From a virus, in the IMG/VR virus record IMGVR_UViG_3300046673_000114, positions 16,484 to 80,483 of that record: DNA of 64,000 bases. The stretch is one strand, 5' to 3'. Below are positions 1 through 64,000 of the stretch, piece after piece. The position numbers and the translations under genes were made by a program. Every line of letters starts with the position of its first letter. The first letter of the stretch is position 1. The notes under the pieces were generated by a model. That model was given only the letters and a program-made list of their open reading frames with translations, did no database searches and was not told the origin of the DNA.

Positions 1-1
1 G

Positions 2-3000
2 TCTATACAGTTTAATTCCACAAGTAACTGCCTACAAGTTAATAAAGTCGCTTCTACTGGCACGCGTTGGAATACGTGGTTTACAACTACTACACCAGTA
101 ACGGCCGGTAACTGGTATTTTATTCAGATAACGTGGAACGTCGGCACAACTGAAGGAACTGCAAATCCGATTTGTTATATTAATAATGTTAATCAAACGA
201 TTTCTCAGGCGCTAACGAACACTGGAAGTTGGACTACCGATGCAGGGGGTATCATATGTATCGGGAATGAGTACCCCGCTGCAAATCCGAGTCAGTTCTA
301 CGGGACTCTAGTAGTAGCTAGAATTCATAACGTTATCCTTACCTCCGGTGCAGGTAGTCAGCTAGAAGGTAATTATAACGCGAGTAAATGGCGCGCACCT
401 ACAATTAAAAACGCATATGTAAACGTTGATGTGCCGGGTGCCGCTGCTGCACTAATCACACTAAGCAAAATACGAACCGACGCGAAGCTTAACGTTTCAT
501 CTATCGTTTCTAATGCGACAGCAGTTAGTTCCGTTGTTTCTCGCGCAGACGCGAAAATTAACGTTGCCACTATTACGAGTACGGCCGCACCTGTAACGTG
601 TATTCCGGGACTCGGGCATTCTATTACCGTAGACGTACCGGGCGCGGTAGCTGCACCCATCACGCCATCCGCGTTTACTACCGGCATTACCTCGCCGGAA
701 ACCGACTCACTCGCCGCGTCTACAGAAGCGGGAAGTTTAAGTAACGTAACCGTAACCATAGCTGAAGCCGATTCCCTAGCGCCGTCTGAAAACGTTTTAT
801 CGAATACTTCAATAGCCGAAACGGATGCGCTCATAGCGTCAGAGACGCCGAACGTCGCGCTCGAGGCCGATGAGGTTAGTACCCTTACACCAATCGAGGC
901 ACCATCAACCGTAGCTACATTAGCCTCTACCGAAATAGACACACTTATACCAATAGAAGCGTTAACGATTGAAGAAGATATAACGATAGGAGAAACCGAC
1001 GCGCTAAGCGAAGTAGAACAATCGGGAGTCGGTGGTAATTATGAGTACGTTAACGCATCAGAAGACATTATATTACTCAACCTCGAAACGCAAGCGTTAA
1101 GTGCGACCGCAGAAGCAGACGAGACGCAGGTTCTAACACCGGACGAAGAGGTTATAGATGAAGCTGATTTAACTGAAATCGATACGATTATACCCATAGA
1201 AGCGCCAGCAGGCGAGGTAGATGTCGGCGAGACTACTTTAATATCATCAACAACTGAGACTATCGATACCGAGGCGTACTATTCGCCGGTTATACACGAA
1301 ACCGTTGTACTTACGCCGATAGAAGCAACCGGCACGGATAGCGGAATCGTAGCATCGGTAATCGTTAACGAGTTTATTACACTAAAACCTCTTGAATTAA
1401 CCACCCCTCAGATTCCGGTGCTTGTCGCCGAACCGGAAATACTCGTCACTTTCGAAGAGATATTACCCGAGGTTGTTATCGATTATGCCGATAGCGATAC
1501 GCTAGACATAACCGAATCTATAAGCATCGAAGCGAAGTTCTCTCCGTTACAGGGACTCGTAGAAAGTGACGCGCTTAATCCTCTAGAAACGTCAACGTTC
1601 GCGTCGACGCTTAGTATTAATGAATCTACGAAACTCGCGCCGTCTGAAACCGCGCATCTTACACTAGCAGAAGTCGAATATATAACGCATAACGAAGTGA
1701 TATACCTCGACGCCGAGGACTCAACGCTTAACGACCCCGTTGTACTAATACAGACGCCACACGGTCCCGCGACGATAGACGCGCTTGAGGTACAAATTAA
1801 CACTACTGAATCTAACAAGCTTAATTCTATAGAAGTCGCAGATATTAATCCGAATGTCTATCACGCACCACCTCCGCTAGTTGATTATGTCTTAGAAGTT
1901 CGAAAGAAGGACGGTAAAAATTGGGATTTAGTAGGCGTATTAGAAAACCGCGTCGCACCAGAGTTACAATGTGAAGTAGGTGCGGCCGACCAGCTTACCT
2001 TTAACCTCCCACTTTCCGACCCAAAATCGCTTTTATTTAACGCATCTAACACGCGTGGATTAGAGGTATGGTATTACGGTAGAGACTCGAAGCTTAAACA
2101 AGTTTTTACGATTACCGGCGGCGGTAAGACAGAAGGCTATCGAGACTACGGCGGAAACCCAGGTGGAAGCGGTAGCACGCTCGGAACCGGCTCGGGAGAT
2201 TGGCTCTACGTTACCGCGATTGGGCCTGAGGCATATCTAACAATGTATTATGTCGCAGACTACACCGCAACGCAAAAGTATGTTTCTTCGATATTAAACG
2301 CTATTTGTGGAGAAATAATAGATGATGGATATATAACCGCCATTCTCGTTGACCCTGCTCTTAATAAACTAATTGATATTGACTTATCGTGGGAAAACCT
2401 ACAGAGTGCGTTAGGTAACATCATTCAACAAACCGGCGGCTATATGCGCGTCTTAGTAAACTCGAATAACCCGTCGAGTCGAGTACTATATCTCTCAAGT
2501 GAAGTCGCTTCAGACATATTCCCGATTAATCTCGGCGGCGTGACGGCTGATTCGGTGGGCGTTTGCTCGTGGGGGCCAAATAGATTAGACTTATTCGCGC
2601 GAGGCGAAAACTCGAGTATCTATCATAAATATTGGAACGGTACTTCGTGGTCTGGTTGGGCTACTCTTGGCGGAACCACTGATAGCGCGCCTACCGCGTG
2701 CTCGTGGGGGCCGAATAGAATAGACGTTTTCGTTCGCGGAACTGATAATATATTATATCAAAAATATTGGAACGGTGCGTGGTCTACATGGATACCACTC
2801 GGTGGCACGCTCACCTCTGCACCAGCCGCAGCTTCGTGGGGGCTAAATCGCATCGATGTAGTTGCTCGCGGAACGAACAATCAACTATACCACATATACT
2901 GGAACGGTATAAATTGGTCAACGTGGGGTACTCTAGGCGGCGACTGCACGAGCGACCCGGCTATAGTATCGTGGGGTGAAAACAGACTAGACGTCTTCGT

Positions 3001-5047
3001 GCGCGGCACCACTATGGAGTTGTATCATACGCGATGGGACGGTTCAACGTGGTCGACGTGGGAAAACCTCGGCGGTTATCTAACCACCGGCCCGGGCGCT
3101 GCGTCGTGGGGGGAGAATAGAATAGACGTTTTCGCTGGCGGAGAGGATAACGAGCTAGAATGGCAATATTGGGGTGGCGACGTTGGTACTCCAATTCACC
3201 AGCAGGGAATCGCGTTCGACGGGACGTATTATTATTATACAACGGATTCTACGATTTATAAGCTCGACGCAAGTTATAACGTCATTGCGTCTAACGCAAA
3301 CGCGGCCACGCAGTGTGGTGGTGACCACCTCGGCGGTTTAGGCATACATAGCGGAACTATATACCAATTCTGCACAACGGATGAGACGCCGCAAGTTATG
3401 ATGGTTGGATTATTTAATACGAGCGATTTAAGCTTTATAAGAAATGTCGATTTAACGAAAGTCGCCGGGAATCCGCCGACGTGGAGTACTTATAACATCG
3501 GCGGCGTGGGTGTAGACGCTGCGAATAACGAACTTGTAGCGATTCACTTCGGTGACGCCGGTAGTCTGTCAGTCGTGGCCCCAAAGGTGTTTAAATTCAA
3601 CTTGAGCACGTTTGCGTACTTAGGTTACATTACTGGAACGGGCGACTTAGGAATCTATTATCAAGGCATCTGCCCGTATGATGGGGTTTATTATTACACC
3701 GTCGATAATTCGTCAAACGCCAACTCACCTACGCATCTACTCGGCGGCGTGTATATGATGAACCCTGACGGAACGGGCCAGACGATGATAATACCTGCGT
3801 CTGTTTTCAATAATGCGGTATCCGATTTAGCGTGGAGTGGTGAGATAGAATCACTCAGCGTGACGGACGCGGGTATTGTTGTGCTTTGTGGTGGCTATAT
3901 CTTTACCTTCTCTCTTGAACCGCCATATACATTACAAAGCGTCACACCGGGACTACAAGAATTAACGCCTGTGTGGTCTGGATGGGAGTCTTTAGGTGGT
4001 TACGTTCAATCATCACCGGCCGCTTGTAGTTGGGGATATGGAAGAATCGACGTGTTTCTCGAGGGGCCGGATGGTGCAGTCTATCAAATGATATACCAAG
4101 AAGACGTGTGGCAGCTAAAGAAAAAGAATAGCCTAACTAAACACGGACGCGTAGACTGTCCTAAATGCCCGAAGGCCGTGAGAAAAGAAGCAGCCGAGCG
4201 TAAAGAAGCAGCCGGAGACGTAGAACCGCAAAACGTATGGTCTAATTGGAACGCGCTCGACGTAGACCAGATTCAGCCACCGGTCCCGATTATAAAATAC
4301 GATGTATTCCCGAGTATGGGTGACGTGATAAATAACGACTTAGGCGATAGCGCATACGACGGAGTTGCGTTTAATAACGGTTTCACACAACTTCAATGCG
4401 GCGTTGGTGCGTGGGTGTTTAACGCGCCGCAAGACGTCACGTGGACGAATAACATTCAAATTACGAGTGGGCCGGATATTACGGGATTAGCAGATATGAC
4501 CCTTAGTATGTGCGTATATATCGACGCGAATCAAACGGCGGTAAATAACCCGAGGCTATTCTCGAAACAACAGGAGAACGGCGCGTTTGAGCTAATCTAC
4601 GACACGTTTAACCAAGCACTCATACTTAGACGATACACAACAAATAACGATTATGACGAGTGGAGAAGCGCACAGAACTCAGTTCCGATAGGCGATTGGT
4701 ATTATATTCAGTTAATATGGCAAAGTAGCGTTAGCCCGGAAACAGAGAGTCCGCCGGTTATTATCGTTGATAACGAGCAGTTAACACTTGTTAATACAGA
4801 AGCCGGAACGGGATGGTGGTCGCCCGACTACTCCAACAATCTCTATATCGGTAATAGCTACTTATTAGATGGCAGCGGTGATTTCGTTGGCATAATGAGC
4901 TTCTTTAGCCTATATGGCGCGGCTATAGTAGACCCAACAGACGACTTTAACACTAACGCGTGGCGGCGAGACCCCGCCGACGTAGACGCGCAGCTTGTTT
5001 ATAATTTCTTCCCACAAATAGTAACTTCCGAGGTGGCAAGTCAGTGA
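2..5047 (+). CDS. Tail hub/lectin protein, first half (5' end outside window)
   Basis: The frame is open from base 2, so the GTG at 431 is internal and the 5' end lies outside the window. Order of modules: a ConA/LamG-like jelly roll (2-430); a low-complexity stretch of about 15 degenerate repeats around E-x-D-x-L-x-P-x-E (about 690-1840); the N-terminal half of a Tal/gp27-like tail hub (about 1885-2520, LEVRKKDG through YLSSEVASD); five PLL-like propeller blades with SWGxNRxDVF and WNGxxWSxW (about 2540-3170); an inserted Tyr/Gly-rich, possibly second, propeller (about 3180-3965); a resumed PLL blade with a Lys-rich CPKC insertion (about 3970-4260); and a final ConA-like domain (about 4290-4960). 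Likely role: tail-tip receptor binding. It overlaps the next gene by 4 bp. Fold names come from motif reading only. Confidence 0.75.
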   Translation, partial: SIQFNSTSNCLQVNKVASTGTRWNTWFTTTTPVTAGNWYFIQITWNVGTTEGTANPICYINNVNQTISQALTNTGSWTTDAGGIICIGNEYPAANPSQFYGTLVVARIHNVILTSGAGSQLEGNYNASKWRAPTIKNAYVNVDVPGAAAALITLSKIRTDAKLNVSSIVSNATAVSSVVSRADAKINVATITSTAAPVTCIPGLGHSITVDVPGAVAAPITPSAFTTGITSPETDSLAASTEAGSLSNVTVTIAEADSLAPSENVLSNTSIAETDALIASETPNVALEADEVSTLTPIEAPSTVATLASTEIDTLIPIEALTIEEDITIGETDALSEVEQSGVGGNYEYVNASEDIILLNLETQALSATAEADETQVLTPDEEVIDEADLTEIDTIIPIEAPAGEVDVGETTLISSTTETIDTEAYYSPVIHETVVLTPIEATGTDSGIVASVIVNEFITLKPLELTTPQIPVLVAEPEILVTFEEILPEVVIDYADSDTLDITESISIEAKFSPLQGLVESDALNPLETSTFASTLSINESTKLAPSETAHLTLAEVEYITHNEVIYLDAEDSTLNDPVVLIQTPHGPATIDALEVQINTTESNKLNSIEVADINPNVYHAPPPLVDYVLEVRKKDGKNWDLVGVLENRVAPELQCEVGAADQLTFNLPLSDPKSLLFNASNTRGLEVWYYGRDSKLKQVFTITGGGKTEGYRDYGGNPGGSGSTLGTGSGDWLYVTAIGPEAYLTMYYVADYTATQKYVSSILNAICGEIIDDGYITAILVDPALNKLIDIDLSWENLQSALGNIIQQTGGYMRVLVNSNNPSSRVLYLSSEVASDIFPINLGGVTADSVGVCSWGPNRLDLFARGENSSIYHKYWNGTSWSGWATLGGTTDSAPTACSWGPNRIDVFVRGTDNILYQKYWNGAWSTWIPLGGTLTSAPAAASWGLNRIDVVARGTNNQLYHIYWNGINWSTWGTLGGDCTSDPAIVSWGENRLDVFVRGTTMELYHTRWDGSTWSTWENLGGYLTTGPGAASWGENRIDVFAGGEDNELEWQYWGGDVGTPIHQQGIAFDGTYYYYTTDSTIYKLDASYNVIASNANAATQCGGDHLGGLGIHSGTIYQFCTTDETPQVMMVGLFNTSDLSFIRNVDLTKVAGNPPTWSTYNIGGVGVDAANNELVAIHFGDAGSLSVVAPKVFKFNLSTFAYLGYITGTGDLGIYYQGICPYDGVYYYTVDNSSNANSPTHLLGGVYMMNPDGTGQTMIIPASVFNNAVSDLAWSGEIESLSVTDAGIVVLCGGYIFTFSLEPPYTLQSVTPGLQELTPVWSGWESLGGYVQSSPAACSWGYGRIDVFLEGPDGAVYQMIYQEDVWQLKKKNSLTKHGRVDCPKCPKAVRKEAAERKEAAGDVEPQNVWSNWNALDVDQIQPPVPIIKYDVFPSMGDVINNDLGDSAYDGVAFNNGFTQLQCGVGAWVFNAPQDVTWTNNIQITSGPDITGLADMTLSMCVYIDANQTAVNNPRLFSKQQENGAFELIYDTFNQALILRRYTTNNDYDEWRSAQNSVPIGDWYYIQLIWQSSVSPETESPPVIIVDNEQLTLVNTEAGTGWWSPDYSNNLYIGNSYLLDGSGDFVGIMSFFSLYGAAIVDPTDDFNTNAWRRDPADVDAQLVYNFFPQIVTSEVASQ

Positions 5048-10847: not shown

Positions 10848-12045
10848 GTCAATTACCCACGCTAAAGCGATGGGCTTGTATCTCCTTCAACTTTTAGGGA
10901 TACAATAGGCTGATTGACGGCAGCCCTCGAAGCGATGTTCTTTGCCGCATTTATATCGGCGTTTTCAGTGTATCCACACGCAACGCAAACAAACTCGCTC
11001 TGTGTCTTGCGGTTCTTCTTGTCAATGTGTCCACACTCTGAACACTGCTTCGACGTGTTTCGCGGGTCGATTAGATGGACGGGAACGCCGTTGAGTTTCG
11101 CTTTGTAGTCTACGAACCATCTCAACTGGCCGAACGCCCACTTACCGAGTCTACCACGCTGTGCCTTTCTAACCGTTGTCCGAGAGCGTATGTGCGTCAA
11201 GTCCTCTAATACAATCGCTCTCTTTGTGTCTTTGGCTATTCCAACAATAACTTTTGAAATACAATGATTGAGATTCGTCTTAAACTTCCGTTCTTTGCCG
11301 CTCGTCCGCTTCAGATGCCGCTTCGCGCTCTTGGTTCCTTTCGACTGAAGTGCTGACTTTAGCTTCGTGTAGCGCGTTCTAACAGCATCGGCCTTATCGC
11401 CACTGAAGTGCTGACCGTCGCTTGTGGTTGCGATATTGACAATTCCCAAGTCTACACCTAAGTAGCCTTCCGCGTTGTATTCTGTCACCCCTTCAACTTC
11501 CACGACCACGCAGAGATAGAACGTTCCCTTTTGAAGTATCAAGTCGGCTTGTCCTCTGACTCGTCGCTGTTCAAGTTGGGCGTAGTCCCCGATTGAGAAC
11601 GGTATGAGCTTTCGACCGTCGAGAGTCAAGATTGAAACCGAATCGAGAGACTTGAACGATAATATTCTTTGGTCATAGACAACAGCGCTGTGTGGTTTGA
11701 ACGTGTGTAGCTCTTGCCGGTGTCCTTTGCCACGGTATGACTCTGAGACTTTGGCTATCGCTCTGACTGCTAACTGTGCCGATAAACCGTAGGTATCTCG
11801 AATATAACGATAATGCTGCTTTTGAAGCGTCCGTTTACCGAATACTCCTTCTTGATAGGAGACTGACGAAACGTAGTTGCACGCTTCGTTGAACCGTTCC
11901 ATTGTGGTTAAGAGGGCAGCATATTGCTCGTCGGTCGGATTGAGCTTTGCTTTAACGGTTAGCAGCATCATAGAATATATGGCTCTATTCTTAGTTAAGT
12001 TTTGTGTTAGACGCGATTCCTCTCAACGCTAAAGCAGTTGAGCTT
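10848..12045 (-). mobile_element. IS200/IS605-type TnpB-only element 1
   Basis: Contains a tnpB but no tnpA. The end after the tnpB stop has a hairpin (10856-10874, CCCA/TGGG arms around GCTAAAGC) followed outward by TAATTGAC, the same outer sequence as element 2. The other end has a similar hairpin (12022-12042, CTCAAC/GTTGAG). Limits are approximate. The 3' end should carry the omega RNA. Confidence 0.7.
10862..11971 (-). CDS. tnpB: TnpB RNA-guided nuclease (IS605 OrfB family)
   Basis: 369 aa, usual TnpB length. RuvC-like acidic residues are in GVDLGIVNIA, VLEDLTHIRS and the NADINAAKNI motif. The zinc finger is CSECGH...CVACGY. Family role: omega-RNA-guided DNA cleavage that helps retain the element. 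No tnpA is adjacent, so movement would need TnpA in trans, for example from the copy at 62487. Closest in-window relative is the TnpB at 15423. Confidence 0.9.
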   Translation of the reverse strand: MMLLTVKAKLNPTDEQYAALLTTMERFNEACNYVSSVSYQEGVFGKRTLQKQHYRYIRDTYGLSAQLAVRAIAKVSESYRGKGHRQELHTFKPHSAVVYDQRILSFKSLDSVSILTLDGRKLIPFSIGDYAQLEQRRVRGQADLILQKGTFYLCVVVEVEGVTEYNAEGYLGVDLGIVNIATTSDGQHFSGDKADAVRTRYTKLKSALQSKGTKSAKRHLKRTSGKERKFKTNLNHCISKVIVGIAKDTKRAIVLEDLTHIRSRTTVRKAQRGRLGKWAFGQLRWFVDYKAKLNGVPVHLIDPRNTSKQCSECGHIDKKNRKTQSEFVCVACGYTENADINAAKNIASRAAVNQPIVSLKVEGDTSPSL

Positions 12046-15401: not shown

Positions 15402-16610
15402 CGGACGTGGCTTGTAACTGTGTCAAGAACACGCTACATTCGGCTGATTGACAGGCAGCCTACTCACATTGGATATACCATCATGAGCGATATTGCGAGA
15501 AGCGTTAAGGTCGGCATTGAGCGAGAACCCGCACTTACGGCAGCGGTAGCTAGAGCCATCCCTATTCCTTTTATAGACGTGGCCGCAGTTAGAACACTTC
15601 TGCGATGTGTAACGAGCATCGACAAGCAAAACGTGCTTACCGACGGCTTCTGCTTTATACCGCAGGAACTGTTCAAGCTGGTAGAACGCCCACGAGTTAA
15701 GAAGACCGTTGAACTTTCTACCACGCCGCTTTTGTACCCTAACCTTACTCAAGTCTTCGAGCGCATAGACACCGAAGGGCAACGAGACAAGCTCCTTACT
15801 AATGCAGTGGTTAACGTCAGTCACAAACCGAGTTTCCCGTTTACTCATACGCTTAAGCTTGCGTTTAGCGGAACGGGTGCCTTTGGACTGAAGCTCTGCA
15901 CGAAGGTGTGCATACTTTCCTCGCACGTTCTTGACCTGCTTTCCGTTGAAAAAAGAGTTGTTAGATGTAACAGCGATGTTTTTGATTCCGCGGTCGATAC
16001 CGAGGACTGCACCGTTATTAGCCGCTGGCACATTAGCAGACTCCATCGAGACGTGCATAAAAAAGCCGTTGCGATACGAGATTGTAACGCTTTTCAACAT
16101 CCATCCCAAATACTGCGAATAGCACGACGGAACCGAGAAACACGCTTTAACGCGCCCCGCAACGGTGGCGATGGTAGCAAATCCTTCGTGGACTTTGATA
16201 CGAGCAACTCTGTGGTTATACCGCAGAGCCGAACGCGGTTTCTTTTGGGGCAACGTTTTGCACTTATCCCGTTTCAGCGATTCGCAAGCGCAGTCTCTCG
16301 CACATTGCACGAGCGAAGACGGAAGCGGAGAAGTAGCACGAAATTGGTGATACGTGCCTTTGTGGTTCTCGACTTTATTCCACGAGTGGTTCTCAAAGCC
16401 CCACTGTGCCGAAGCGTTGAACGCTTTGGTGTATTCGTCCATCGTGGTAAGGAGTTTTTGAGTATCCTCATCGGCACAATGCAGCTTAAGCGTAATAGTC
16501 CGTATCACGTTCATATATTAGACACGATAGAAGATAAAGGTTTTGAGTGTATGGAAAAAGTAAAAGGAGGACAGGTACGGTCTTCTCTCCCTGCGATAGC
16601 GGGGAGTCTC
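15383..16610 (-). mobile_element. IS200/IS605-type TnpB-only element 2
   Basis: tnpB flanked by a hairpin at 15391-15410 (CCACG/CGTGG) with outer TCAATTAC, as in element 1, and by a hairpin at 16587-16606 (CTCCC/GGGGAG) on the other side. It interrupts a rightward gene row, and genes on either side appear clipped. Ends are approximate. Confidence 0.7.
15423..16514 (-). CDS. tnpB: TnpB RNA-guided nuclease
   Basis: 363 aa. Catalytic motifs GIDRGIKNIA, YALEDLSKV and NADLNASRNI are present. Zinc finger CSNCGH...CRKCGF is intact. Similar to the TnpB at 10862 in length, KGTRSAKRKLKR block and C-terminal PVNQP. A long open frame on the opposite strand here is only a shadow. Confidence 0.9.
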   Translation of the reverse strand: MNVIRTITLKLHCADEDTQKLLTTMDEYTKAFNASAQWGFENHSWNKVENHKGTYHQFRATSPLPSSLVQCARDCACESLKRDKCKTLPQKKPRSALRYNHRVARIKVHEGFATIATVAGRVKACFSVPSCYSQYLGWMLKSVTISYRNGFFMHVSMESANVPAANNGAVLGIDRGIKNIAVTSNNSFFNGKQVKNVRGKYAHLRAELQSKGTRSAKRKLKRMSKRETRFVTDVNHCISKELVSLPFGVYALEDLSKVRVQKRRGRKFNGLLNSWAFYQLEQFLRYKAEAVGKHVLLVDARYTSQKCSNCGHVYKRNRDGSSYRCRKCGFSLNADLNASRNIAHDGISNVSRLPVNQPNVACS

Positions 16611-18971: not shown

Positions 18972-19059
18972 GACGTGAAGGGGGGGAGGGTTACTTTAGG
19001 TTGTAACACTAAAAACGACACCACCCGCTAAATCTCGAAATTGTGTGAAAGAAGAGCAT

Positions 19060-19099
19060 ACTATTATTATCTTATTATTATTATTATTATTATTAAATA
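19060..19099. repeat. ATT/TTA trinucleotide tract
   Basis: About ten near-perfect ATT units in an otherwise AT-rich stretch. Likely easily melted DNA in the candidate origin. Confidence 0.8.
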
Positions 19100-19263: not shown

Positions 19264-20406
19264 ATGAGTTATATCCTAGACCTAGCAAAAAGTTCGTCAC
19301 CAATCATTAAAGACGAGCATATTCTAGAATCGAATTATATTCCAGATACAATCGTCGGTCGACATAAGCAGCAAGAAGAGATGTGGCCGCCACTTTCTCA
19401 TCTTATGAAAGGTCAACCAGCGCATCATTTACTCTTAATGGGGCATAACGGTTCCGGTAAAACGGTTGTCATTCGTAGCGTTCTTCGGGACCTCGAGACG
19501 GTAACCGACTTTCAGACGATATATCTCCCAAGCGTGCGCGACCCTAAGCCTAACTCGGTAATGCGTCGACTTCTAGAAGCATCAGGCGTGGCGCTCCCAC
19601 CGAAAGACGAGTCGGTAGCGAGTCTAATAAATCTTCTTGATAAGCATTTATCCACCATAGATAAGCCCATTATATTCATATTCGACGAAATAGACTTCTT
19701 TATCTCAAAGGATATGTGGACGGTTCTTAATTATATCGTGCGCGAAAGAGATATGGCGACCGTCGTAGGCACGACGAACGACCCGAGGCTTCTAAGTAAG
19801 ATACCGGATAAAAAGTTAATCTCGGCATATAGACCCTCAACCGTAACATTTCCGCCGTATAACACAGACGAACTACGAGAAATACTCGAGTCGAGAGCTG
19901 AGAAAGCGCTTTATGCGAACGTATTAGAAGCTGAGGTTATACCTCGATGTGCTGCGTTGGCGGTTAGGTTAAATAACGGTGATGCTCGTTACGCTATCTC
20001 ATTGCTTTCGAAGGCCGCCGAGATATGTCATACAAACCTTCAAAAGAAAGTTACTAGCGAAGATGTTATACAAGCGGTGCAAGAGCTAGAGAACGAAGAA
20101 TATGATAAAATAGCCTCGTTATTATCGGAGCGGCATAAGAACATTCTACGCATATTAATTATTAAAGATAACATACGACGAGCAGAACTACAGGAAGTCT
20201 ACGAAACTAATAATTCCTATGATGTTATTTCCGATGTGTGGTTCGCGAGAGAGCTAAGAACGTTAGAAGAATTTGGTCTTATAATCCGATGGTCTAAAGG
20301 TAAGGGTCGCGGACTAGGCGTTACGTGGTTTGTTTCGTTACACGAGGACATTGATAAAGAGAAACTTAAAGAAGTTTTATACCGTGATTTAGGTGGCGGG
20401 GCGTGA
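19264..20406 (+). CDS. cdc6: Orc1/Cdc6-type replication initiator
   Basis: 380 aa, close to the family's usual 400. AAA+ features: Walker A GHNGSGKT (60-67), Walker B FIFDEID (138-144), sensor-1 VGTTND (168-173), and a C-terminal winged-helix region (about 290-370, RAELQEVYE...LRTLEEFGLI). Binds origin DNA and recruits the MCM helicase in archaea; viral copies probably direct replication to the element's own origin, here the region just upstream. The stop is followed within 10 bp by TnpB element 3. Confidence 0.9.
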   Translation: MSYILDLAKSSSPIIKDEHILESNYIPDTIVGRHKQQEEMWPPLSHLMKGQPAHHLLLMGHNGSGKTVVIRSVLRDLETVTDFQTIYLPSVRDPKPNSVMRRLLEASGVALPPKDESVASLINLLDKHLSTIDKPIIFIFDEIDFFISKDMWTVLNYIVRERDMATVVGTTNDPRLLSKIPDKKLISAYRPSTVTFPPYNTDELREILESRAEKALYANVLEAEVIPRCAALAVRLNNGDARYAISLLSKAAEICHTNLQKKVTSEDVIQAVQELENEEYDKIASLLSERHKNILRILIIKDNIRRAELQEVYETNNSYDVISDVWFARELRTLEEFGLIIRWSKGKGRGLGVTWFVSLHEDIDKEKLKEVLYRDLGGGA

Positions 20407-20407: not shown

Positions 20408-21616
20408 TTCTCCCCCAGCTAAAGCAGGGGGCTTCTATCGATTGAACGAACAGAGGCAAGCCCACCTCTGAGTATGTTGATTGCAGCGTTCTCATCGCGG
20501 TCAGCGACATAGCCGCAGTCACACGAATGTATGCGGTCTTTCAGTTCCTTCTTGACTATTTGACCACACCTGCTACATTCCTGAGTAGTATTCTTAGGAT
20601 TCACCAGCACCACTATTGAACCAGCTTCCTCCGCTTTGTTCTGTGTTGCGTTAATGAATTGAGTCCACGCAGCGTCGCCTATCGATTTGGCGAGGTAGTG
20701 ATTCTGCTGCATACCTTTGACGTTCAAATCTTCAAAGGCGATTATGCCGAATCTGTTAACGATTGCACGGCTCAGTTGATGCGCGAAGTCGTTTCGTCTG
20801 TTAGCTATCCGTTCGTGGATTCTTGACACCACCTTTCGGGCTTTCTTCCTTTGTGGTGCGCCTTTCGCTTGAGCTGAGAGTTTACGCTGCGCTTTCGCTA
20901 ACGCTTTTTCATCGTGCCTAAAGAATCGTGGGTTCTCGACTTTCTCACCATTAGACAGCGTGGCAAACGACGTTAGTCCTACGTCTACCCCAACAACAGC
21001 CCCGTCTTTGAATGTTTGGGTCTTAGGTTCGTATTCTGTGGTGAAACAAGCAAACCACTTCCCCATAGAACGCTTGTTTATGTTCAGCCGTTTTATCACA
21101 CCTTCAATCGGGCGATGCAACACTATCTTGACGTTTCCTATCTTTGACAGCATTAAATCATCTGCTTTAAGAGCGAATCCCATTTGTGGGTAGGTGAATG
21201 AATCATAGCGCCCTTTGCCTTTGAACCTCGGATAACCTGCTTCTTTCTCTCCTGCTTTGACACGTCTAAAGAACGCTTTGAAGGCTAAGTCCACACGTTG
21301 AGAGACTTCTTGTAGCACTTGCGAATGAACGCTTGTCAGCTCCGGTCTATCACGCTTCCATATTGGTATCAACTTGTTCGTGTCATATCTGCCAAGTGTC
21401 ACACCCTTTGACTCATATGCGGTCTTTCGCGTGGCTAATACCTCATTATATACCCATCGGCACAACTCTAAGGTTTGATTCATCTTAGTTTCCTGTGCCT
21501 TTGTCGGATAGAGCCGATAGCGATAGACCTTATGCATTGTTTATCTATTGGCATTATTAGCATAAGAATGTTAGGGTTAGGAACGCTCTGTATCCCCACC
21601 TTAAAAGGTTGGGGTT
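20408..21616 (-). mobile_element. IS200/IS605-type TnpB-only element 3
   Basis: tnpB between a hairpin at 20412-20431 (CCCCC/GGGGG around AGCTAAAGCA) and one at 21594-21614 (CCCCACC/GGTTGGGG). No tnpA. Inserted just behind the cdc6 stop without breaking it. Ends approximate. Confidence 0.7.
20419..21537 (-). CDS. tnpB: TnpB RNA-guided nuclease
   Basis: 372 aa. GVDVGLTSFA, IAFEDLNVKGM and ADRDENAAINIL supply the RuvC residues, with zinc finger CSRCGQ...CDCGY. Closely related to the TnpB at 62888 (same YRLYPT start and LELCRWVYNE), a different lineage from elements 1 and 2. Confidence 0.9.
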   Translation of the reverse strand: MHKVYRYRLYPTKAQETKMNQTLELCRWVYNEVLATRKTAYESKGVTLGRYDTNKLIPIWKRDRPELTSVHSQVLQEVSQRVDLAFKAFFRRVKAGEKEAGYPRFKGKGRYDSFTYPQMGFALKADDLMLSKIGNVKIVLHRPIEGVIKRLNINKRSMGKWFACFTTEYEPKTQTFKDGAVVGVDVGLTSFATLSNGEKVENPRFFRHDEKALAKAQRKLSAQAKGAPQRKKARKVVSRIHERIANRRNDFAHQLSRAIVNRFGIIAFEDLNVKGMQQNHYLAKSIGDAAWTQFINATQNKAEEAGSIVVLVNPKNTTQECSRCGQIVKKELKDRIHSCDCGYVADRDENAAINILRGGLASVRSIDRSPLL

Positions 21617-25046: not shown

Positions 25047-25146
25047 GGTTGAGCCATGGCTCAGTGAGAACGATTATCCTGTCTTGAAAAAAGTAGACGG
25101 CGTTCTTAACTGGGAATGGGTTATGTGGCAACTTAGGCAATTATGA
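24958..25146 (+). pseudogene. TnpA fragment fused to a foreign C-terminus
   Basis: 62-aa ORF. Residues 1-30 equal the start of the TnpA at 62487 except for one residue, but the HUH motif and tyrosine are missing. The remaining 32 residues (WLSENDYPVLKKV onward) are unrelated and look like the end of another viral gene. The stop overlaps the methyltransferase ATG (ATGA). Chimera from a deletion; probably not a transposase. Confidence 0.7.
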
Positions 25147-25832
25147 TAGACACAATAATCTGCGGCGACTGCCTTGAGGTTTTAGAAGAGATGCCTGATA
25201 ACTATGTGGATGCAATTATAACTGACCCCCCTTACTCAAGCGGTGCGCGACGTGACGCAAACGCGAATCTGCGACAGGCGCGTCGTCGAGGGGAAGATAA
25301 GCGCGCGTTCAGCAATGATACACTCACAAGCAAAACGTTCGCGTGGTTTATGCGGGCGTGCGGCTTACAATGGGCGCGCGTCTTAAAACCAGACGGCCAT
25401 TTATTAATATTTATTGACTGGTATCACGGATATAATATAGCAAACGCATTAGAAACGGCTGGGCTGAAACAGGTTAATTTAGTTGTATGGGACAAGCAGT
25501 ACTTTGGTATGGGGCATTACTTCCGCAATCAGCATGAACTAATATTACATTTTTTAAACTACGAACGTCCAAAACCGTTTGCGCAGAACGTAGGAAACGT
25601 TATCTCAATAAAACCAATCCGTAACGGAATACACCCAACGGAAAAACCAGTTGAGTTGATAGAACGTATGTTACCCGTGGTAACTAATGAATACGACACC
25701 GTTCTCGACCCCTTTGCGGGCAGCGGCACAATCGCAGTCGCATGCCGTCGCAGCAACCGCCACTATATCTGCATCGAAAAAGAACCAGAATACTGCGCGA
25801 TTGCTGAGAAACGAATCGCGGAGATGTTGTGA
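25143..25832 (+). CDS. DNA methyltransferase (N4-cytosine/N6-adenine type)
   Basis: 229 aa. Motif IV DPPY at 28-31 precedes motif I DPFAGSGT near 193, the beta-class order, with HPTEKP before it. A short linker of Arg/Gln-rich sequence follows DPPY. No restriction partner adjoins, so it is a solitary viral methylase that could protect DNA from host restriction. Target sequence cannot be read from the protein. GATC is missing from this DNA, so that site would not need protection. Confidence 0.85.
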   Translation: MIDTIICGDCLEVLEEMPDNYVDAIITDPPYSSGARRDANANLRQARRRGEDKRAFSNDTLTSKTFAWFMRACGLQWARVLKPDGHLLIFIDWYHGYNIANALETAGLKQVNLVVWDKQYFGMGHYFRNQHELILHFLNYERPKPFAQNVGNVISIKPIRNGIHPTEKPVELIERMLPVVTNEYDTVLDPFAGSGTIAVACRRSNRHYICIEKEPEYCAIAEKRIAEML

Positions 25833-26476: not shown

Positions 26477-27013
26477 ATGCAAAAACCAAACTTCTCGGAA
26501 GACCTCGCATTTTCATTAGACCCATTACACGCTGAGATGATGGATACATTTTATATCGATTTCTTCGGCGCGATGGGTCTAGAAGTAGTAGAGGTTAAAC
26601 ACATCACCGACCGAGCAGAACAGAAAAAAGGCTACGATAAGCTCATTAAGCTCGATAACGGGCAGTTTATCCGCGTGGAAGAAAAACGAGATAGATACGT
26701 TACAGGAAATTTAGTACTAGAGTTATGGTCGGACTCGGATAGAAAAAGAGGGTGGTTGTACACCAGTACTGCCGATTTTCTTTGTTATCATTTCATTAAT
26801 ACGGGAATCACTCATATGCTTCCAATGCCGCTATTACGGCGCGCGTGGATGCTTAACGAAAAGTTATGGCTAGACGTCTACGACGAGAAACATATTAAAA
26901 ATCGCGCATGGACGACGATAATACTTCCCGTACCTGTGACCGTTCTTCGTGCTGCGCTTATGGAAGCGATGGAGCACGACCACGTTTTAATAGCTGAGAA
27001 GTGTTTAGTTTAA
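26477..27013 (+). CDS. Putative PD-(D/E)XK-like nuclease
   Basis: 178 aa. KLDNGQFIRVEEKRD followed by GNLVLEL and GWLYTSTADFLCYHF resembles the E-x-K core and the trailing helix of restriction-like folds found in phages. The ATG follows AAATATAT directly, so the transcript may be leaderless. Catalysis not established. Confidence 0.45.
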   Translation: MQKPNFSEDLAFSLDPLHAEMMDTFYIDFFGAMGLEVVEVKHITDRAEQKKGYDKLIKLDNGQFIRVEEKRDRYVTGNLVLELWSDSDRKRGWLYTSTADFLCYHFINTGITHMLPMPLLRRAWMLNEKLWLDVYDEKHIKNRAWTTIILPVPVTVLRAALMEAMEHDHVLIAEKCLV

Positions 27014-27325
27014 ATGATTCACCCACGACCTAAACCACTATCGTCATATCCTGCTCACGAGAAAAACAGCCTAGAGCAGATACCGATATTAACCTATGAA
27101 GTAGGCGATTTGGCTAAGATGTTTGCTTATGCTCATCGCTATAGGTTGGTCGATAAAGAGAGAAGTAAAGGCTATAGAATCGAAGCGCGAATAGCCGCTT
27201 CTGATGTTATAGCTCAAATGGTCGTGATGTGTGAGCGCGAAGGCTGGAATTTTTATGAAGTGAAGAAGCTCGGCGAGGAACGCTTTAGGGAGAAAATAGA
27301 GCGGCATAGGCTCTATAAAGAATAA
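27014..27325 (+). CDS. Hypothetical protein (103 aa)
   Basis: Starts immediately after the preceding stop and overlaps the next ATG by one base. Helical; EVGDLAKMFAYAHRYRL. Reads like an accessory subunit of the nuclease upstream, without proof. Confidence 0.5.
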   Translation: MIHPRPKPLSSYPAHEKNSLEQIPILTYEVGDLAKMFAYAHRYRLVDKERSKGYRIEARIAASDVIAQMVVMCEREGWNFYEVKKLGEERFREKIERHRLYKE

Positions 27326-30578: not shown

Positions 30579-30580
30579 AA

Positions 30581-31498: not shown

Positions 31499-32019
31499 TG
31501 AATATCTGTTCTCAGTGTCATAAGTCACACGACGGTAAGTTTAAAACGTGCGAGCCGTGTTTAGACCACACTCGTAAATGGCGAAAGGAGAATCTTAGAA
31601 GAAATCGAGAGATAGGTCTTACGTATTATTATGCACATCAAAAAGAAATATTAGAGAAAGGCCACATATACCGTCAAGTAAATCGAGAGAAAGAAAACGC
31701 ACGTCAGCAACGGTGGCGCAAAGAGAATCCAGAACGATTAAAAGAACAGAGACAAGATAAACGATTTATGGTGCTACAGTACTATTCGCGTAGTGATATA
31801 CCCTTCTGCGACTGCTGCGGCGAAAAAACATTAGAGTTTCTATGTATCGACCATATAAGTGGAAATGGTAATGAGCATAGGCGCGAAACTAAAAAAGCGC
31901 CGATTTATGCTTGGTTAATTCAGCATAACTTTCCAGACGGATTTCGAGTTTTATGTCATAATTGTAATCTATCATTAGGTTTTTATGGCTATTGTCCGCA
32001 TAAGAGTAAAGAGGTATAA
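31498..32019 (+). CDS. HNH endonuclease
   Basis: 173 aa. N-terminal CSQCHK...CEPC, charged helices, then CDCCGEKTLEFLCIDHISGNGNEHR and VLCHNCNLSLG. Ends YGYCPHKSKEV, as in the paralog 30581 (YGYCPHDK). Confidence 0.8.
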   Translation: MNICSQCHKSHDGKFKTCEPCLDHTRKWRKENLRRNREIGLTYYYAHQKEILEKGHIYRQVNREKENARQQRWRKENPERLKEQRQDKRFMVLQYYSRSDIPFCDCCGEKTLEFLCIDHISGNGNEHRRETKKAPIYAWLIQHNFPDGFRVLCHNCNLSLGFYGYCPHKSKEV

Positions 32020-32020
32020 A

Positions 32021-32815
32021 ATGGTGCTTAGAAGAGAATATAAGGGAGGGATAGGTCGCGTTTATGTGGATGAGAATGACCGAGAGTACCCCTCAGTAAC
32101 TACCGTCTTACAGACGCTCTCAAAGGGGCCGTGGTTAGAACGGTGGCAAGACACGATGCGCGTTAACCACTTTACAGAGACATTCGATAAACACATTGAA
32201 AGCCTCGACGGAGATACGCGTAATAAAGTAAATAAAGAAAAGGTTCATCGTATCTTTAAAAGCGCACTAGCCGCGCCTAATAATTATAGAGATATGAAGG
32301 GCGCACAGGGTGACTTTTATCATAAGATGCTCGAGTCGTATTTAAAAGACGATAAAGGCGAACATCCGGTAGAGTGGTATCTCGCGCAGGACGAGAGAGC
32401 GGAAAAGGTATTAAATAACTTTAAAAAATGGGTGTGGAAGACGCAGTTAAAACCGATAAAGGTCGAACATTATCTACACTCAACGAAATACGGTTTCGCT
32501 GGAACCGTTGATTTAGTTGGTACGCAGACAACAAAAGACGGCGATAAGGAGTTAGTTCTAGTAGATTTTAAGACGGGAAGCGTGCAGAAAGACCAGTTGC
32601 TTCAATTAGCCGCGTATGCTAAAGCATACGAAGAACGATTCTTCTTACGACCTAAACGAGCTTTCTTTTTAAAGGTCGACGTCGATGCGGGGTCGGTAGG
32701 TGAACAATTACGGGTAGAAAATGGCACCCTAGAACAATTATTTGAGCTATATATGTGCTCATTTAGATTATGGTGCTGGCGGAATGATGTTAAGTTTCAA
32801 GTGTTAGATGAGTGA
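32021..32815 (+). CDS. RecB/Cas4-like PD-(D/E)XK exonuclease
   Basis: 264 aa from ATG 32021 behind GAGGTAT. Motif D in GFAGTVDLVG, ELVLVDFKTGS (D-x-K) and LLQLAAYAKAY (Q-x-x-x-Y), the arrangement of phage-type RecB-family exonucleases. Likely acts in recombination or DNA end processing. Confidence 0.75.
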   Translation: MVLRREYKGGIGRVYVDENDREYPSVTTVLQTLSKGPWLERWQDTMRVNHFTETFDKHIESLDGDTRNKVNKEKVHRIFKSALAAPNNYRDMKGAQGDFYHKMLESYLKDDKGEHPVEWYLAQDERAEKVLNNFKKWVWKTQLKPIKVEHYLHSTKYGFAGTVDLVGTQTTKDGDKELVLVDFKTGSVQKDQLLQLAAYAKAYEERFFLRPKRAFFLKVDVDAGSVGEQLRVENGTLEQLFELYMCSFRLWCWRNDVKFQVLDE

Positions 32816-38193: not shown

Positions 38194-38789
38194 TGAAATC
38201 AATAAAAAAAGAAAAGAGACTAACTAAAAAAGAGCAGCTTCAAAAAAGAAGATATGATTTTTGGAGACTTATGTCTCACGGCGCAACTCTAGCCGACGCC
38301 GTTAAGATGATTTCAGAGAAATACGGTGTCGGTAAAGCCGTTTTATATAGCGATTGGGCTAAACGAGAGGAATGGGGTGTCGTCGAGGAACCAGAGAAAA
38401 ATAGAATAGTAAAAGATGGTCTGTTTTCATTACAAGAAACAAGACGTTATCTTTGGAATCTTATTAACGCTTCACCAGAACAGCTTAACGAAGACGGGGT
38501 ATTAGTCGACTCTCGAGGCGTGCCGATGTGGCCGTTTGAATTACCAGATGTTAAGTTAAGAGCTACTACGATAGCGAAGATTATAGAAACAGATTTCGCG
38601 GTTATCCGAATGACGCAAAGCATAGGCATCGTTCCGCAAAAGGGAATGACTATTTCTATGTTATCCGAAAACTCTGCTGAAATAGAAAAGAACCTAGACG
38701 CGTATTGCGGTGACGATGTAGAGCTAAAAAGAGCGGTATTAGTCGCACTCGATACGATGGCGAGGGGTGTAAGTGGCGAAGACTCCTAA
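38193..38789 (+). CDS. terS: Terminase small subunit-like protein
   Basis: 198 aa from ATG 38193. Residues about 18-60 carry a helix-turn-helix-like region (LMSHGATLADAVKMISEKYGV...LYSDWAKREEW), the rest is helical. Position directly upstream of, and overlapping, the terminase ATPase supports the role of DNA recognition for packaging. Confidence 0.6.
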   Translation: MKSIKKEKRLTKKEQLQKRRYDFWRLMSHGATLADAVKMISEKYGVGKAVLYSDWAKREEWGVVEEPEKNRIVKDGLFSLQETRRYLWNLINASPEQLNEDGVLVDSRGVPMWPFELPDVKLRATTIAKIIETDFAVIRMTQSIGIVPQKGMTISMLSENSAEIEKNLDAYCGDDVELKRAVLVALDTMARGVSGEDS

Positions 38790-39651
38790 ATACACACTAA
38801 AGAAAAGACCGCGCGGTAGGCCGCGTAAAGAGAAACCGGCAGCGAAAGAGAAGAAAGAATACTCTACCGATGCAGTTCGTTATCTAAAGTATAAGATGGC
38901 CCCGGACGTGTGGGTAGAAGAAAACTATGATATAACGCTCGATTCGTGGCAGAAAGAAGCATTAAACACCCAATCGAATCGCCTACTACTTAATTGTTCA
39001 AGACAGGCGGGAAAATCGACCGTTGTTTCTCTATTAGCGCTACACCATGCGTTATTTACACCTAAAGCATTAGTCCTCGTCGTCTCACATACGGATATTC
39101 AAGCGAAAGAAACGTTTAAGAAAATAGCCGATAGCTTCCACGACCTAAAGACCGAATGGTATAAAAGCGAAGTAGACACCGTTTATGAGATTAGGTTTAA
39201 CAATAAAAGTCGTATCATAGCACGAACGGGACAACAACCAGATAGCTTACGAGGGTATAGTGGTGTTACGCTTTTAATCATCGACGAAGCTGCATCAGTT
39301 TTAGAAGAAAGTTATATGGTTCTTAAACCAATGCTTGCCGTCTCGAAAGGAAAGGTAGTTTTGCTTTCTACGCCTAAAGGTAAACGAGGTTTCTTCTATG
39401 ATGCGTATAAAGACGCGCACGAGAATAACCGAGAGAGCTGGCATTACTTAGAAATAAAAGCCGACGATTGTCCTAGAATCACGCAAGAATACTTACTAAG
39501 TGAAAAAGAGCGCAATCCCGATTGGGTATTCGAGCAAGAATACTATTGTGTCTTCATTTCGAATGTGAGCAACATTTTTCCAAACGTTGCCGACTTATTT
39601 ATAGAAATGCCCCTAGACGACCACTGGTCATTCGATTTAGACTTGGATTAA
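38773..39651 (+). CDS. terL: Terminase large subunit, ATPase half
   Basis: 292 aa, GTG start inside the end of terS. Walker A SRQAGKST (76-83), Walker B LLIIDEA (167-173), coupling motif LLSTPKG (about 196-202), then FEQEYYCVF that normally precedes the nuclease domain. An AT-hook-like RPRGRPRK is at residues 12-19. The protein stops here without a nuclease; that half is encoded at 47433. Motor of DNA packaging. Confidence 0.85.
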   Translation: MAKTPKYTLKKRPRGRPRKEKPAAKEKKEYSTDAVRYLKYKMAPDVWVEENYDITLDSWQKEALNTQSNRLLLNCSRQAGKSTVVSLLALHHALFTPKALVLVVSHTDIQAKETFKKIADSFHDLKTEWYKSEVDTVYEIRFNNKSRIIARTGQQPDSLRGYSGVTLLIIDEAASVLEESYMVLKPMLAVSKGKVVLLSTPKGKRGFFYDAYKDAHENNRESWHYLEIKADDCPRITQEYLLSEKERNPDWVFEQEYYCVFISNVSNIFPNVADLFIEMPLDDHWSFDLDLD

Positions 39652-47332: not shown

Positions 47333-47443
47333 ATGGAAATTGGAATATATTTCATAAGCGGTATTCTAGCGATAGGACTTATAATTACTGAAACTCTTTT
47401 ATTTATAGAACTAAAGCTTAAGAACCAAAAGAATGCCACGTAG
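47333..47443 (+). CDS. Single-helix membrane protein (36 aa)
   Basis: ATG 47333 after AAGGTAGTG. One hydrophobic helix (IYFISGILAIGLIITETLL). Overlaps the terminase nuclease start by 11 bp. Confidence 0.45.
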   Translation: MEIGIYFISGILAIGLIITETLLFIELKLKNQKNAT

Positions 47444-48188
47444 AGCGCCAATTTGGGGTCTTGAACATCTTTCAGATGATGAATACAAGACATCTTTAGA
47501 GGGTCGATATAAGGATAGAGAACTCCCGACAGAAGCCACACTAAAAGCGCGTAAGGAAAGCCAAGAGAAACGCGAAAAAATAGTTATAGTTGGCATAGAC
47601 CTCGGAAAGGAGGTTGATGCAACTGTTTTAGCCATCGTCGAACCAACCGAGAACTACGAAAATCCTATTTATCTAGTGCACAATGTTATCCCCGTCCGCT
47701 TAGGGACAAGTTACGCAACGATAATAAGTAGTGTTGCGGCACTCGACGAACAGCTTCGTCTCCGTAAGAACGCAATTGATGTTAAGTACGTAGTAGACGC
47801 CGGGGGTGCGGGGGGCGTCGTCGATAGTCTCGAAGAAGCGCTGCCTAAAGCGGATATTTATAAGGTGCATATAACCTCGGGGTACGAATCCACTATCCAT
47901 GATGATTTTAAAATCGGGCTCCCTAAACGCGAGTGGGTCACCACCCTTAAAAAAGTATTAGAAGCGAAAAGAGTTAGGTTTCATTATATCGACGACGACG
48001 GTAGAAGAGATTCGGGGATGAGACTCTTAGAAAACGAAATTAACAATTTTCAGATGAAGATTTCTCAAACGGGATACGATAAATACGAAGCAAGTAGCGG
48101 ACATCACGACGACGCGGTTCAAGCATTAGGGTTAGCCATCTGGTTCGGCGAGCGTGAAGCGGGGCGTGGGCCGTTACGAATATGGTAG
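47433..48188 (+). CDS. terL: Terminase large subunit, nuclease half
   Basis: 251 aa. RNase H-fold nuclease of TerL: first Asp in VGIDLGKEVDATVLA, middle VDAGGAGGVVDSLEEA, last Asp pair in HHDDAVQALGLAIW. Cuts concatemeric DNA during packaging. The ATPase half is 7.8 kb upstream at 38773; a 65-residue linker (MPRRAP...) precedes the fold and might dock the two halves. Confidence 0.85.
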   Translation: MPRRAPIWGLEHLSDDEYKTSLEGRYKDRELPTEATLKARKESQEKREKIVIVGIDLGKEVDATVLAIVEPTENYENPIYLVHNVIPVRLGTSYATIISSVAALDEQLRLRKNAIDVKYVVDAGGAGGVVDSLEEALPKADIYKVHITSGYESTIHDDFKIGLPKREWVTTLKKVLEAKRVRFHYIDDDGRRDSGMRLLENEINNFQMKISQTGYDKYEASSGHHDDAVQALGLAIWFGEREAGRGPLRIW

Positions 48189-56372: not shown

Positions 56373-56609
56373 ATGAGAGAGTCAACTAAATGCGAAGGCT
56401 GTGACCGGCCGGTTTTTATCGAACCAGCGGTAGAACGCGAGACCGGTCAGCTTTATTTATTTTGTCCCTTCTGCGAACGTAATAATTTTTTACCGATTAT
56501 AGAACGCGAATCGAATCCCGAATTAAAAGACATAGCCACTGATACGGAAATAGTTGAGGAAATAGTCATAAAGAAAAGACGAAGAAGAGTTAATGGTAAG
56601 AAAAAATGA
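56373..56609 (+). CDS. Zinc-ribbon protein with basic tail (78 aa)
   Basis: CEGCDRPVFIE...LFCPFCERNNF ribbon, ending KKRRRRVNGKKK. Overlaps the HNH gene by 4 bp. Confidence 0.55.
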   Translation: MRESTKCEGCDRPVFIEPAVERETGQLYLFCPFCERNNFLPIIERESNPELKDIATDTEIVEEIVIKKRRRRVNGKKK

Positions 56610-57244
56610 GTAAAGCGTGTTCGATATGCGGGGCGTTATTCGAATCTAAGCAATTTAAAACCTGTGATAAATGTCGCGCTCGGACGCGCGATTGGAAAAA
56701 GGCCAATCATAAAAAGAATAGTGAATATAACCGTAAATATCGAATAATAAATAAGGTTAGATTAGTAGAATACGCACATAAATATTATATGATTAATCGC
56801 GAGCAGATTTGTAAAAAAGCACAAGAGTATAAGAAACTAAATCACGATGAGATACTAAAACGCGGTTTAATTTACCGCGAAGCAAATCGCGAAAGAGAAA
56901 ATAAACGTAGCTGTTTATGGTTAAAAGTTAATCGTGAGAAATGTAGAGTACAGGAACACACTCGACGCGCGAGAATTAACGGAAGTAGTGGCTCTTACTC
57001 TCTACAAGAAGAGATGGAATTGTTTACTTGGCAGGAAGGTAAATGTCATTATTGTGGTAACTTTCTATATCTCTCATACCCACAGAAATATCATATAGAC
57101 CATAAAACACCGTTATCGCGTGGCGGTTCTAATCTAATCGACAATATCGCGCTATCTTGTAAGTTCTGTAATATACGTAAAGGTACTAAAACTGAATTAG
57201 AATTCTTTAAGTTTTTAGTTAAAAACGAGGAAAAAAATGAGTAA
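56606..57244 (+). CDS. HNH endonuclease (McrA-like core)
   Basis: 212 aa. N-terminal CSICGALFE...CDKCR knuckle, Lys-rich helices, then CHYCGNFL...YHIDHKTPLSRGGSNLIDNIALSCKFCNIRKG. The core is the classical HNH/McrA type, different from the other HNH families here. Confidence 0.8.
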   Translation: MSKACSICGALFESKQFKTCDKCRARTRDWKKANHKKNSEYNRKYRIINKVRLVEYAHKYYMINREQICKKAQEYKKLNHDEILKRGLIYREANRERENKRSCLWLKVNREKCRVQEHTRRARINGSSGSYSLQEEMELFTWQEGKCHYCGNFLYLSYPQKYHIDHKTPLSRGGSNLIDNIALSCKFCNIRKGTKTELEFFKFLVKNEEKNE

Positions 57245-61849: not shown

Positions 61850-61882
61850 GGTCAATTTAGGAGACGATGGAGGGTGCTATAG

Positions 61883-62429: not shown

Positions 62430-62486
62430 ATGAGAGCCGTTCTTATACACCATAAAGTTTATAGTTCTATAAAACAATGATAAACT

Positions 62487-62882
62487 ATGAAATATCAACT
62501 GAGCAAAGGCGCTCATTCAGTCTATGCACTCCAATACCACTTTGTTCAGTGTGTAAAATACCGGCGAAACGCTCTTGCTAACTCAGAAGTCGTGGCACTA
62601 CTCAAAGACAAGATACACGAAATAAGCGAGACGTTTGAGGTCGATGTGCTGAACATAGAAGCCGATAAAAACCACTTTCATATGATATTCGCAGCGAAGC
62701 CAACGCTTGACATTCCACGATACATCAACGCGCTAAAGACAATAACATCGAGAGAGATACGGCGAAACTTCCCCGAAGTCAAAGAAACGCTGAAACGGGG
62801 GACGTTCTGGTCTCGCTCGTATTTCCTAGCTACTACAGGACAAGTGACACTCGATAAGCTGAAACACTACGTTGAGAGTTAG
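62487..62882 (+). CDS. tnpA: TnpA Y1 transposase (IS200/IS605)
   Basis: 131 aa. HUH metal-binding His63 and His65 in NHFHMIF, catalytic Tyr128 near the C-terminus (KHYVES). Cuts and joins single-stranded element ends at hairpins. The only intact TnpA in the window, so it may also move the three TnpB-only elements if their ends are recognised. Confidence 0.9.
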   Translation: MKYQLSKGAHSVYALQYHFVQCVKYRRNALANSEVVALLKDKIHEISETFEVDVLNIEADKNHFHMIFAAKPTLDIPRYINALKTITSREIRRNFPEVKETLKRGTFWSRSYFLATTGQVTLDKLKHYVES

Positions 62883-62887
62883 GGACG

Positions 62888-63988
62888 ATGAATAAAGTCT
62901 TTCGTTATAGGCTGTATCCGACCGCACACCAAGAAACGGTGATGAAGCAAACGCTTGAGCTGTGCAGATGGGTCTATAACGAAACACTGGCAACACGGCG
63001 CAACGCGTATGAAGCAACAAAAGACTTCCCATATTCTCGACACGTTTTGTATTCTCGATACGACACGCAAAAACTACTGTTGCTCTGGAAACAAGAACGA
63101 CAGATACCTGTGTATTCTCAGGTGCTCCAAGAAGTTCAATATCGAGTAGACTTAGCCTTCAAAGCATTTTTCCGGCGGGTAAAAGCTGGAGAGAAAGCAG
63201 GATACCCGCGTTTCAAAGGTAGGGGCTGGTGTGATTCATTCACTTACCCACAGTCAGGTTTTGCTCTCACAGGTTCAACGCTACAGTTGTCAAAGATAGG
63301 TGATGTCAAAATCAAACTACACAGACCGATAGAGGGCGAGATAAAGCGGCTTAACATAAAGCGCAGTTCAACAGGGAAGTGGTTTGCGTGTTTCACTGTT
63401 GACGGTTGGAGAGAGATACAAATAGCACCTAACAATGCTGCGGTTGGTGTTGATGTTGGCATAAATTCGTTTGCCACACTGTCAACTGGTGAACACATAG
63501 ACAACCCACGTTTCTTTAGAGCTGAAGAAAAACAGTTAGCGAAAGCGCAGCGAAATAAGGCAAAGAAGGTAATTCCGAAGATACACGAACGCATAGCGAA
63601 CAAGCGGAGTAACTTCGCTCACCAGTTAAGCAGAAAGCTTGTCGATACATACGGCATCATCGCCTTCGAGGACTTGAATATCAAAGGGATGATGCAAAAC
63701 AGCCACCTAGCAAAGTCAATAGGCGATGTGGCGTGGAGTCAGTTCATCACATTCACGAAGAACAAAGCTGAGAACGCTGGTTCAGTAGTGGTGATGGTTG
63801 ACGCAAAGAATACAACTCAAGAATGTTCGAGATGTGGTCAGATAGTTCATAAAGAGCTGAAAGACCGCGTTCATTCGTGTGACTGCGGACTTGTCTTAGA
63901 TAGAGATGAGAACGCGGCTAAGAACATACTCGGTCGTGGGCTAGCGACCGTTCGTGGAAACACGATAGAAGCTGCTTGCGTAAGCTAG
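62888..63988 (+). CDS. tnpB: TnpB RNA-guided nuclease
   Basis: 366 aa. GVDVGINSFA, IAFEDLNIKGM, LDRDENAAKNIL, zinc finger CSRCGQ...CDCGL. Starts 5 bp after the tnpA stop. Close relative of the TnpB at 20419. Confidence 0.9.
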   Translation: MNKVFRYRLYPTAHQETVMKQTLELCRWVYNETLATRRNAYEATKDFPYSRHVLYSRYDTQKLLLLWKQERQIPVYSQVLQEVQYRVDLAFKAFFRRVKAGEKAGYPRFKGRGWCDSFTYPQSGFALTGSTLQLSKIGDVKIKLHRPIEGEIKRLNIKRSSTGKWFACFTVDGWREIQIAPNNAAVGVDVGINSFATLSTGEHIDNPRFFRAEEKQLAKAQRNKAKKVIPKIHERIANKRSNFAHQLSRKLVDTYGIIAFEDLNIKGMMQNSHLAKSIGDVAWSQFITFTKNKAENAGSVVVMVDAKNTTQECSRCGQIVHKELKDRVHSCDCGLVLDRDENAAKNILGRGLATVRGNTIEAACVS

Positions 63989-64000
63989 TAGAGTAGTCAC

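Follow-up and report, generated by a model that had tools for sequence, protein, structure and literature searches.

GATC was completely absent from the analysed parts of all five records of one virus lineage that were included in this study. This lineage probably became GATC-free through a host defence that attacks unmodified GATC, of which an orthodox Type II restriction enzyme is the most likely form. The window, which is the whole stretch of DNA that was analysed, is 64,000 b in length and corresponds to bases 16,484–80,483 of the IMG/VR record IMGVR_UViG_3300046673_000114 (80,483 b).

GATC and other palindromes in the window virus

The programmatic count of GATC in the window was 0, in agreement with an earlier note on this DNA, which had also put the number expected from base composition at about 240. 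The zero-order expectation was 237 and that of a second-order Markov model was 171. In the 16,483 b of the record that lie outside the window, GATC was absent as well, and the entire 80,483 b had 0 GATC vs. 216.8 Markov-expected. Synonymous codons were then permuted within each of 116 non-overlapping ORFs, by which the proteins and the codon usage were preserved. These codon shuffles gave 159–161 expected GATC with a minimum of 135, while the observed number was 0 (z = -14.8). The shuffle-expected GATC were spread over all three codon phases (74/28/57). Moreover, no GATC was found in the 14.2 kb outside the 116 shuffled ORFs. Thus, neither the proteins nor codon usage nor composition can account for the loss of GATC, and the latter two are excluded as its cause by the codon shuffles and by the zero in non-coding DNA. 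An assembly or library artefact is also unlikely, because the trait is common to relatives from three other metagenomes, while the contigs L226 and L228, which come from datasets with neighbouring IMG numbers, are full of GATC.

Both GAT (n = 1330) and ATC (n = 948) were frequent. The tetranucleotides that lie one step from GATC and retain ATC or GAT (AATC, CATC, TATC, GATA, GATG, and GATT) were enriched with Markov ratios of 1.17–1.40; such an enrichment would follow by construction from a conversion of GATC contexts. Given that GAT and ATC are both common, no simple mutation bias removes just their overlap. It is most improbable that a mutational process destroying GATC, or the avoidance of mismatch repair, emptied this genome of GATC without any defence. 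A precedent for the latter is phiX174, a small single-stranded-DNA phage of E. coli. Similar to the window virus, phiX174 is totally free of GATC, and sites added to it reduce the mutation rate via methyl-directed repair, mismatch repair being one proposed cause of the loss (PMC5014478); in its small genome, however, few sites are expected by chance. MutH was found in 0 of 50 candidate host genomes, and in a genome of 80 kb, repair avoidance would not be expected to make each single site intolerable.

Other 4-base palindromes had been described as plentiful in the earlier note. This was true of TCGA, GCGC, and GGCC, but CTAG and AATT were mildly reduced (Markov ratio of 0.80 each), of which CTAG, at 224 of 280 expected in the record, was nearly normal. 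The codon-shuffle scan of the window virus showed that GCGC, CGCG, and TCGA were over-represented. It also revealed avoided sites that the earlier note had overlooked, including CATG (45 vs. 161.8 expected), CCWGG (2 vs. 55.2), and the 6-base palindromes GAGCTC, CTGCAG, CAGCTG, and TTGCAA (0 vs. about 10–13 expected each). GGWCC was found 20 times vs. 61.5 expected, and GCCGGC and GATATC were also strongly avoided. GATC is the extreme case within this broader avoidance pattern, and the avoidance of CATG, CCWGG, and 6-base sites suggests several further restriction specificities.

Virus identity and gene content

The gene content identifies the contig as a tailed virus of archaea (Table 1). It encodes a Cdc6-type initiator, which indicates an archaeal host, a Prophage_tail-family protein, a DUF346-repeat protein, a Mu F-like head protein, a ParB-N protein, and a tape-measure-sized protein with a weak tail match. 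Also encoded are a large terminase that is split into two ORFs, a predicted N6/N4 DNA methyltransferase whose closest phage relatives were ~44% identical, and four TnpB genes, one of which lies next to an intact IS200-type TnpA. None of the ORFs searched matched an integrase. Nor was a near-identical phage record found for window positions 1–25000, and the best archaeal terminase match among the matches listed was Halogranum tailed virus 1 (33%).

Table 1. Predicted features of the window virus, with window coordinates.
Feature	Coordinates	Strand	Evidence
TnpB 1, GATC-free	10862..11971	-	PF07282; 0 GATC
TnpB 2, GATC-free	15423..16514	-	PF07282 2.3e-24; 0 GATC
Cdc6-type replication initiator	19264..20406	+	PF22703 Cdc6_lid 2.3e-19
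TnpB 3, GATC-free	20419..21537	-	PF01385; 0 GATC
N6/N4 DNA methyltransferase (predicted)	25143..25832	+	PF01555 5.6e-38, phrog_67
178-aa protein retained in the GATC-free lineage, with invariant GYD...EEK motif (PD-(D/E)XK-like by eye)	26477..27013	+	homologs
RecB/Cas4-like exonuclease, lineage marker	31985..32815	+	PF12705 4.6e-10, phrog_298 2.1e-33
Large terminase, ATPase part, separate ORF	38773..39651	+	PF03237 3.2e-18
Large terminase, nuclease part, separate ORF	47433..48188	+	weak PF17289 match, E = 0.0012
IS200/IS605-type element, GATC-free (TnpA 62487–62882, TnpB 62888–63988)	62487..63988	+	PF01797 6.2e-36, PF07282

The ATPase and nuclease ORFs of the terminase are 7.8 kb apart in the window virus. 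In its relatives from archaeal genomes, the two parts are likewise separate ORFs but mostly near each other, suggesting that the split is old and that the 7.8-kb gap is derived. At least seven ORFs that resemble HNH endonucleases and are related in sequence are scattered over the window (23130–23714 on the minus strand, 27325–27891, 30566–31162, 31498–32019, 35421–36083, 39688–40308, and 56606–57244), of which Pfam confirmed HNH only for the one at 56606–57244. At 27888–30199, a glycosyltransferase-like gene adjoins a gene for a UDP-glucose/GDP-mannose dehydrogenase, and a virus-encoded sugar modification is possible. In addition, a papain-family (C1) peptidase gene and another ORF (55121–56368 and 33355–34524), both conserved across the lineage, have C-terminal sequences that resemble the DUF346-repeat protein at 431–5047.

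The GATC-free lineage, TnpB elements and GATC-free islands

Relatives of the window virus were sought with several proteins by use of alignments. Such alignments were required, as single-query scans of IMG/VR with the terminase, the Prophage_tail protein, and the 26477 protein found no relative. IMGVR_UViG_3300044801_000107 (L004/L223) was 80–97% identical to the window virus in the aligned parts of window 46.7–62.4 kb, and its terminase nuclease part was 88% identical. The records 3300018003_000003 (L304/L306), 3300050026_000481 (L227/L305), and 3300050026_000388 (L308) had many homologs in common with the window virus, mostly at ~35–70% amino-acid identity. The RecB/Cas4-like exonuclease was also present in L306, L307, and L308. 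In the analysed parts of the five lineage records, the GATC count was 0 vs. 216.8, 64.6, 41.8, 90.9, and 57.2 expected, which amounts to 0 of 471.3 expected in 169 kb. Of the relatives that are 87 kb and 102 kb long, these counts covered 30 kb and 21 kb, respectively. The divergence within the lineage reaches down to roughly 45% protein identity. The avoidance of CATG and CCWGG was common to the window virus, L004, and L306 but not to L227/L305, in which GATC was the sole strongly depleted palindrome. Given that GATC is avoided in all members and CATG/CCWGG only in some, the loss of GATC is, across the records compared, a constant trait of the lineage and probably ancestral, whereas the other avoidances appear to come and go.

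The comparison between the window virus and L004, which covered 11,552 aligned columns, included 27 positions where both viruses are one base off GATC and differ at that base. GATC was gained at none of them (0/27). Most other palindromes had 18–62 copies that were found in one virus only, and CATG, which is also avoided, had 8. Thus, selection against GATC has continued after the divergence of the two viruses.

Among the viral loci from the terminase alignment, GATC was absent in only 2 of 80 (L227 and L300). L300 (IMGVR_UViG_3300031772_000163), a different terminase relative, had 0 of 55 expected GATC and 0 of 30 expected CTAG over 13.7 kb, and its AGCT and GTAC were low. The terminase relatives in archaeal genomes, which are putative proviruses or provirus fragments, had GATC near expectation, with L142 as a partial exception (GATC 22/79, CTAG 1/24). 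Their retention of GATC matches the pattern of a phage survey, in which sites were typically eliminated from non-temperate phages, whereas temperate phages showed weak elimination (PMC6286503).

The absence of GATC within the TnpB elements, which the earlier note had reported, was also found by counting. It had been taken there as a hint that the elements had shared the same host or that the host genome might avoid GATC as well; the candidate host loci do not support the latter. In Methanothrix loci, the GATC count was 2.15 times the zero-order expectation, and twelve tnpB relatives of Methanothrix/Methanocrinis had 7–17 GATC each, compared with 0 in the tested tnpB regions of the window. Either GATC was removed from the TnpB elements once they had entered, or the elements were derived from other GATC-free viruses. 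L232, a related virus that bears GATC, possesses an 82%-identical, GATC-free copy of the IS605-type element of the window, which sits in a 4.0-kb GATC-free island (L232:1623–5655; 12–15 GATC expected). Similarly, L226 contains a 4.6-kb GATC-free island (L226:3036–7596; 14–17 expected), while the rest of L226 is GATC-rich. More such islands were observed in GATC-bearing terminase relatives (L224:4920–7829 and L142:1953–7829), and the lengths of all islands ranged from ~3 to 6 kb. The simplest reading is that the islands are segments exchanged between GATC-free and GATC-bearing viruses. GATC-free stretches, such as the ~4-kb islands, may therefore serve as a tracer of segments moved from GATC-free viruses.

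Candidate hosts and the agent of selection

The best TnpB matches were from Methanothrix (~53–61%). A terminase relative was found in 20 Methanosarcinia genomes, 15 of which belonged to the Methanothrix family. Both lines point to methanogens of this family, or to relatives of them, as possible hosts. Methanothrix is not a proven host, as somewhat better terminase matches were found elsewhere in the phylum, searches for a CRISPR spacer or a provirus of the window virus found none, and CTAG usage differs (0.22 of the zero-order rate in Methanothrix loci vs. nearly normal in the window virus). A 35-base match in L078 was rejected as a CRISPR spacer because the locus has no repeats. A 38-base match to many genomes (19058–19095) was rejected as a replication-origin box; it is a TTA repeat.

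GATC is a short palindrome whose number in this virus is far under the composition- and codon-corrected expectation (0 vs. 160–217). Known Type II enzymes for GATC include DpnII, MboI, Sau3AI, and MjaIII. The hosts of this presumably non-temperate lineage of tailed archaeal viruses would long have carried a defence against unmodified GATC. Any GATC created by mutation, recombination or IS insertion would cause the genome to be cut on entry and lost, so that the site would be removed everywhere by single-base changes and then kept out. Given that the candidate chromosomes are GATC-rich, an enzyme resident in such a host would have to be paired with a methylase. The suggestion of the earlier note that the lineage was long exposed to a GATC-targeting system remains the best explanation, and it is strengthened by the lineage-wide zero and by the 0/27 gains of GATC in the comparison with L004. 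A search of 50 Methanotrichaceae genomes revealed no convincing GATC restriction gene and no member of the MutH/Sau3AI family. Two partial DpnII-family matches (L084 and L085) lie beside a beta-class-like methyltransferase. Because they align to the family model in its C-terminal part only, no GATC specificity is claimed for them. Thus, the selecting enzyme is a putative one.

Another GATC-directed host system, either a phosphorothioation-linked one of the Dnd/Pbe type or a Dam-type methylase whose mark on viral GATC would direct a modification-dependent nuclease to it, would be a close variant of this account but is an unlikely agent. The archaeal DndCDEA-PbeABCD system, which acts at GATC, blocks the replication of viral DNA (PMC6459918), and a full-length DndC was found in one Methanotrichaceae genome. 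However, this was the only one of the 50 genomes in which DndC was above the cut-off. In several archaeal groups, Dam-like methylases of GATC are persistently present (PMC10609329), and the Methanothrix genome G008 contains three D12-family genes, of which both of the two checked resemble Dam. In the phage survey, however, modification-dependent systems in general led only to weak avoidance (PMC6286503).

It is also doubtful, and rather improbable, that the virus itself encodes a GATC-specific nuclease, such as the product of 26477–27013, which would break the GATC-rich host chromosome and would require its own genome to be site-free. The loss of GATC follows the virus lineage while other avoidances vary, the candidate host loci are GATC-rich, and the 26477 protein with its invariant motif is retained in every lineage member with the region covered, its homologs in L304/L306, L227/L305, and L308 being 46–49% identical. 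Searches with this protein, however, found no family or fold match, and its structure models were of low confidence, by which its assignment as a nuclease by fold was rejected. Moreover, many other genes are conserved equally, and nothing observed points to sequence specificity of the protein. If a viral nuclease were the cause, a site-free virus genome would need no protecting methylase, and avoidance would make attack safe rather than serve to evade defence.

A host restriction system, which is the reading preferred here, agrees with what is known of other viruses. Similar to the window virus, non-temperate dsDNA phages have almost or fully eliminated short palindromic Type II sites; the host enzymes are known in that survey, whereas we infer the one that acts on the window virus (PMC6286503). 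Among archaeal tailed dsDNA viruses, GATC is also wholly absent from the HF1-group haloviruses (HF1, HF2, Serpecor1, Hardycor2, and HRTV-5/7/8), and CATG is reduced in both (Markov ratios of 0.35–0.44 in the HF1 group and 0.26 in the window virus) (PMC7230728). Different from the window virus, in which CTAG is nearly normal, the HF1 group lacks CTAG fully (PMC7230728). No near nucleotide match was found in the phage collection for window positions 1–25000, and no HF1-group record was among the 20 terminase matches listed.

To the known phenomenon of restriction-site avoidance, this lineage with its complete loss of GATC adds a new case that is unusually clean and extends over the whole lineage. 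Total site elimination, which in archaea is known from haloviruses, is thereby extended to another lineage of archaeal tailed viruses. One site can remain a constant target through divergence to roughly 45% protein identity while the other avoided sites change. A GATC-directed defence is predicted to be widespread in the hosts of this lineage.
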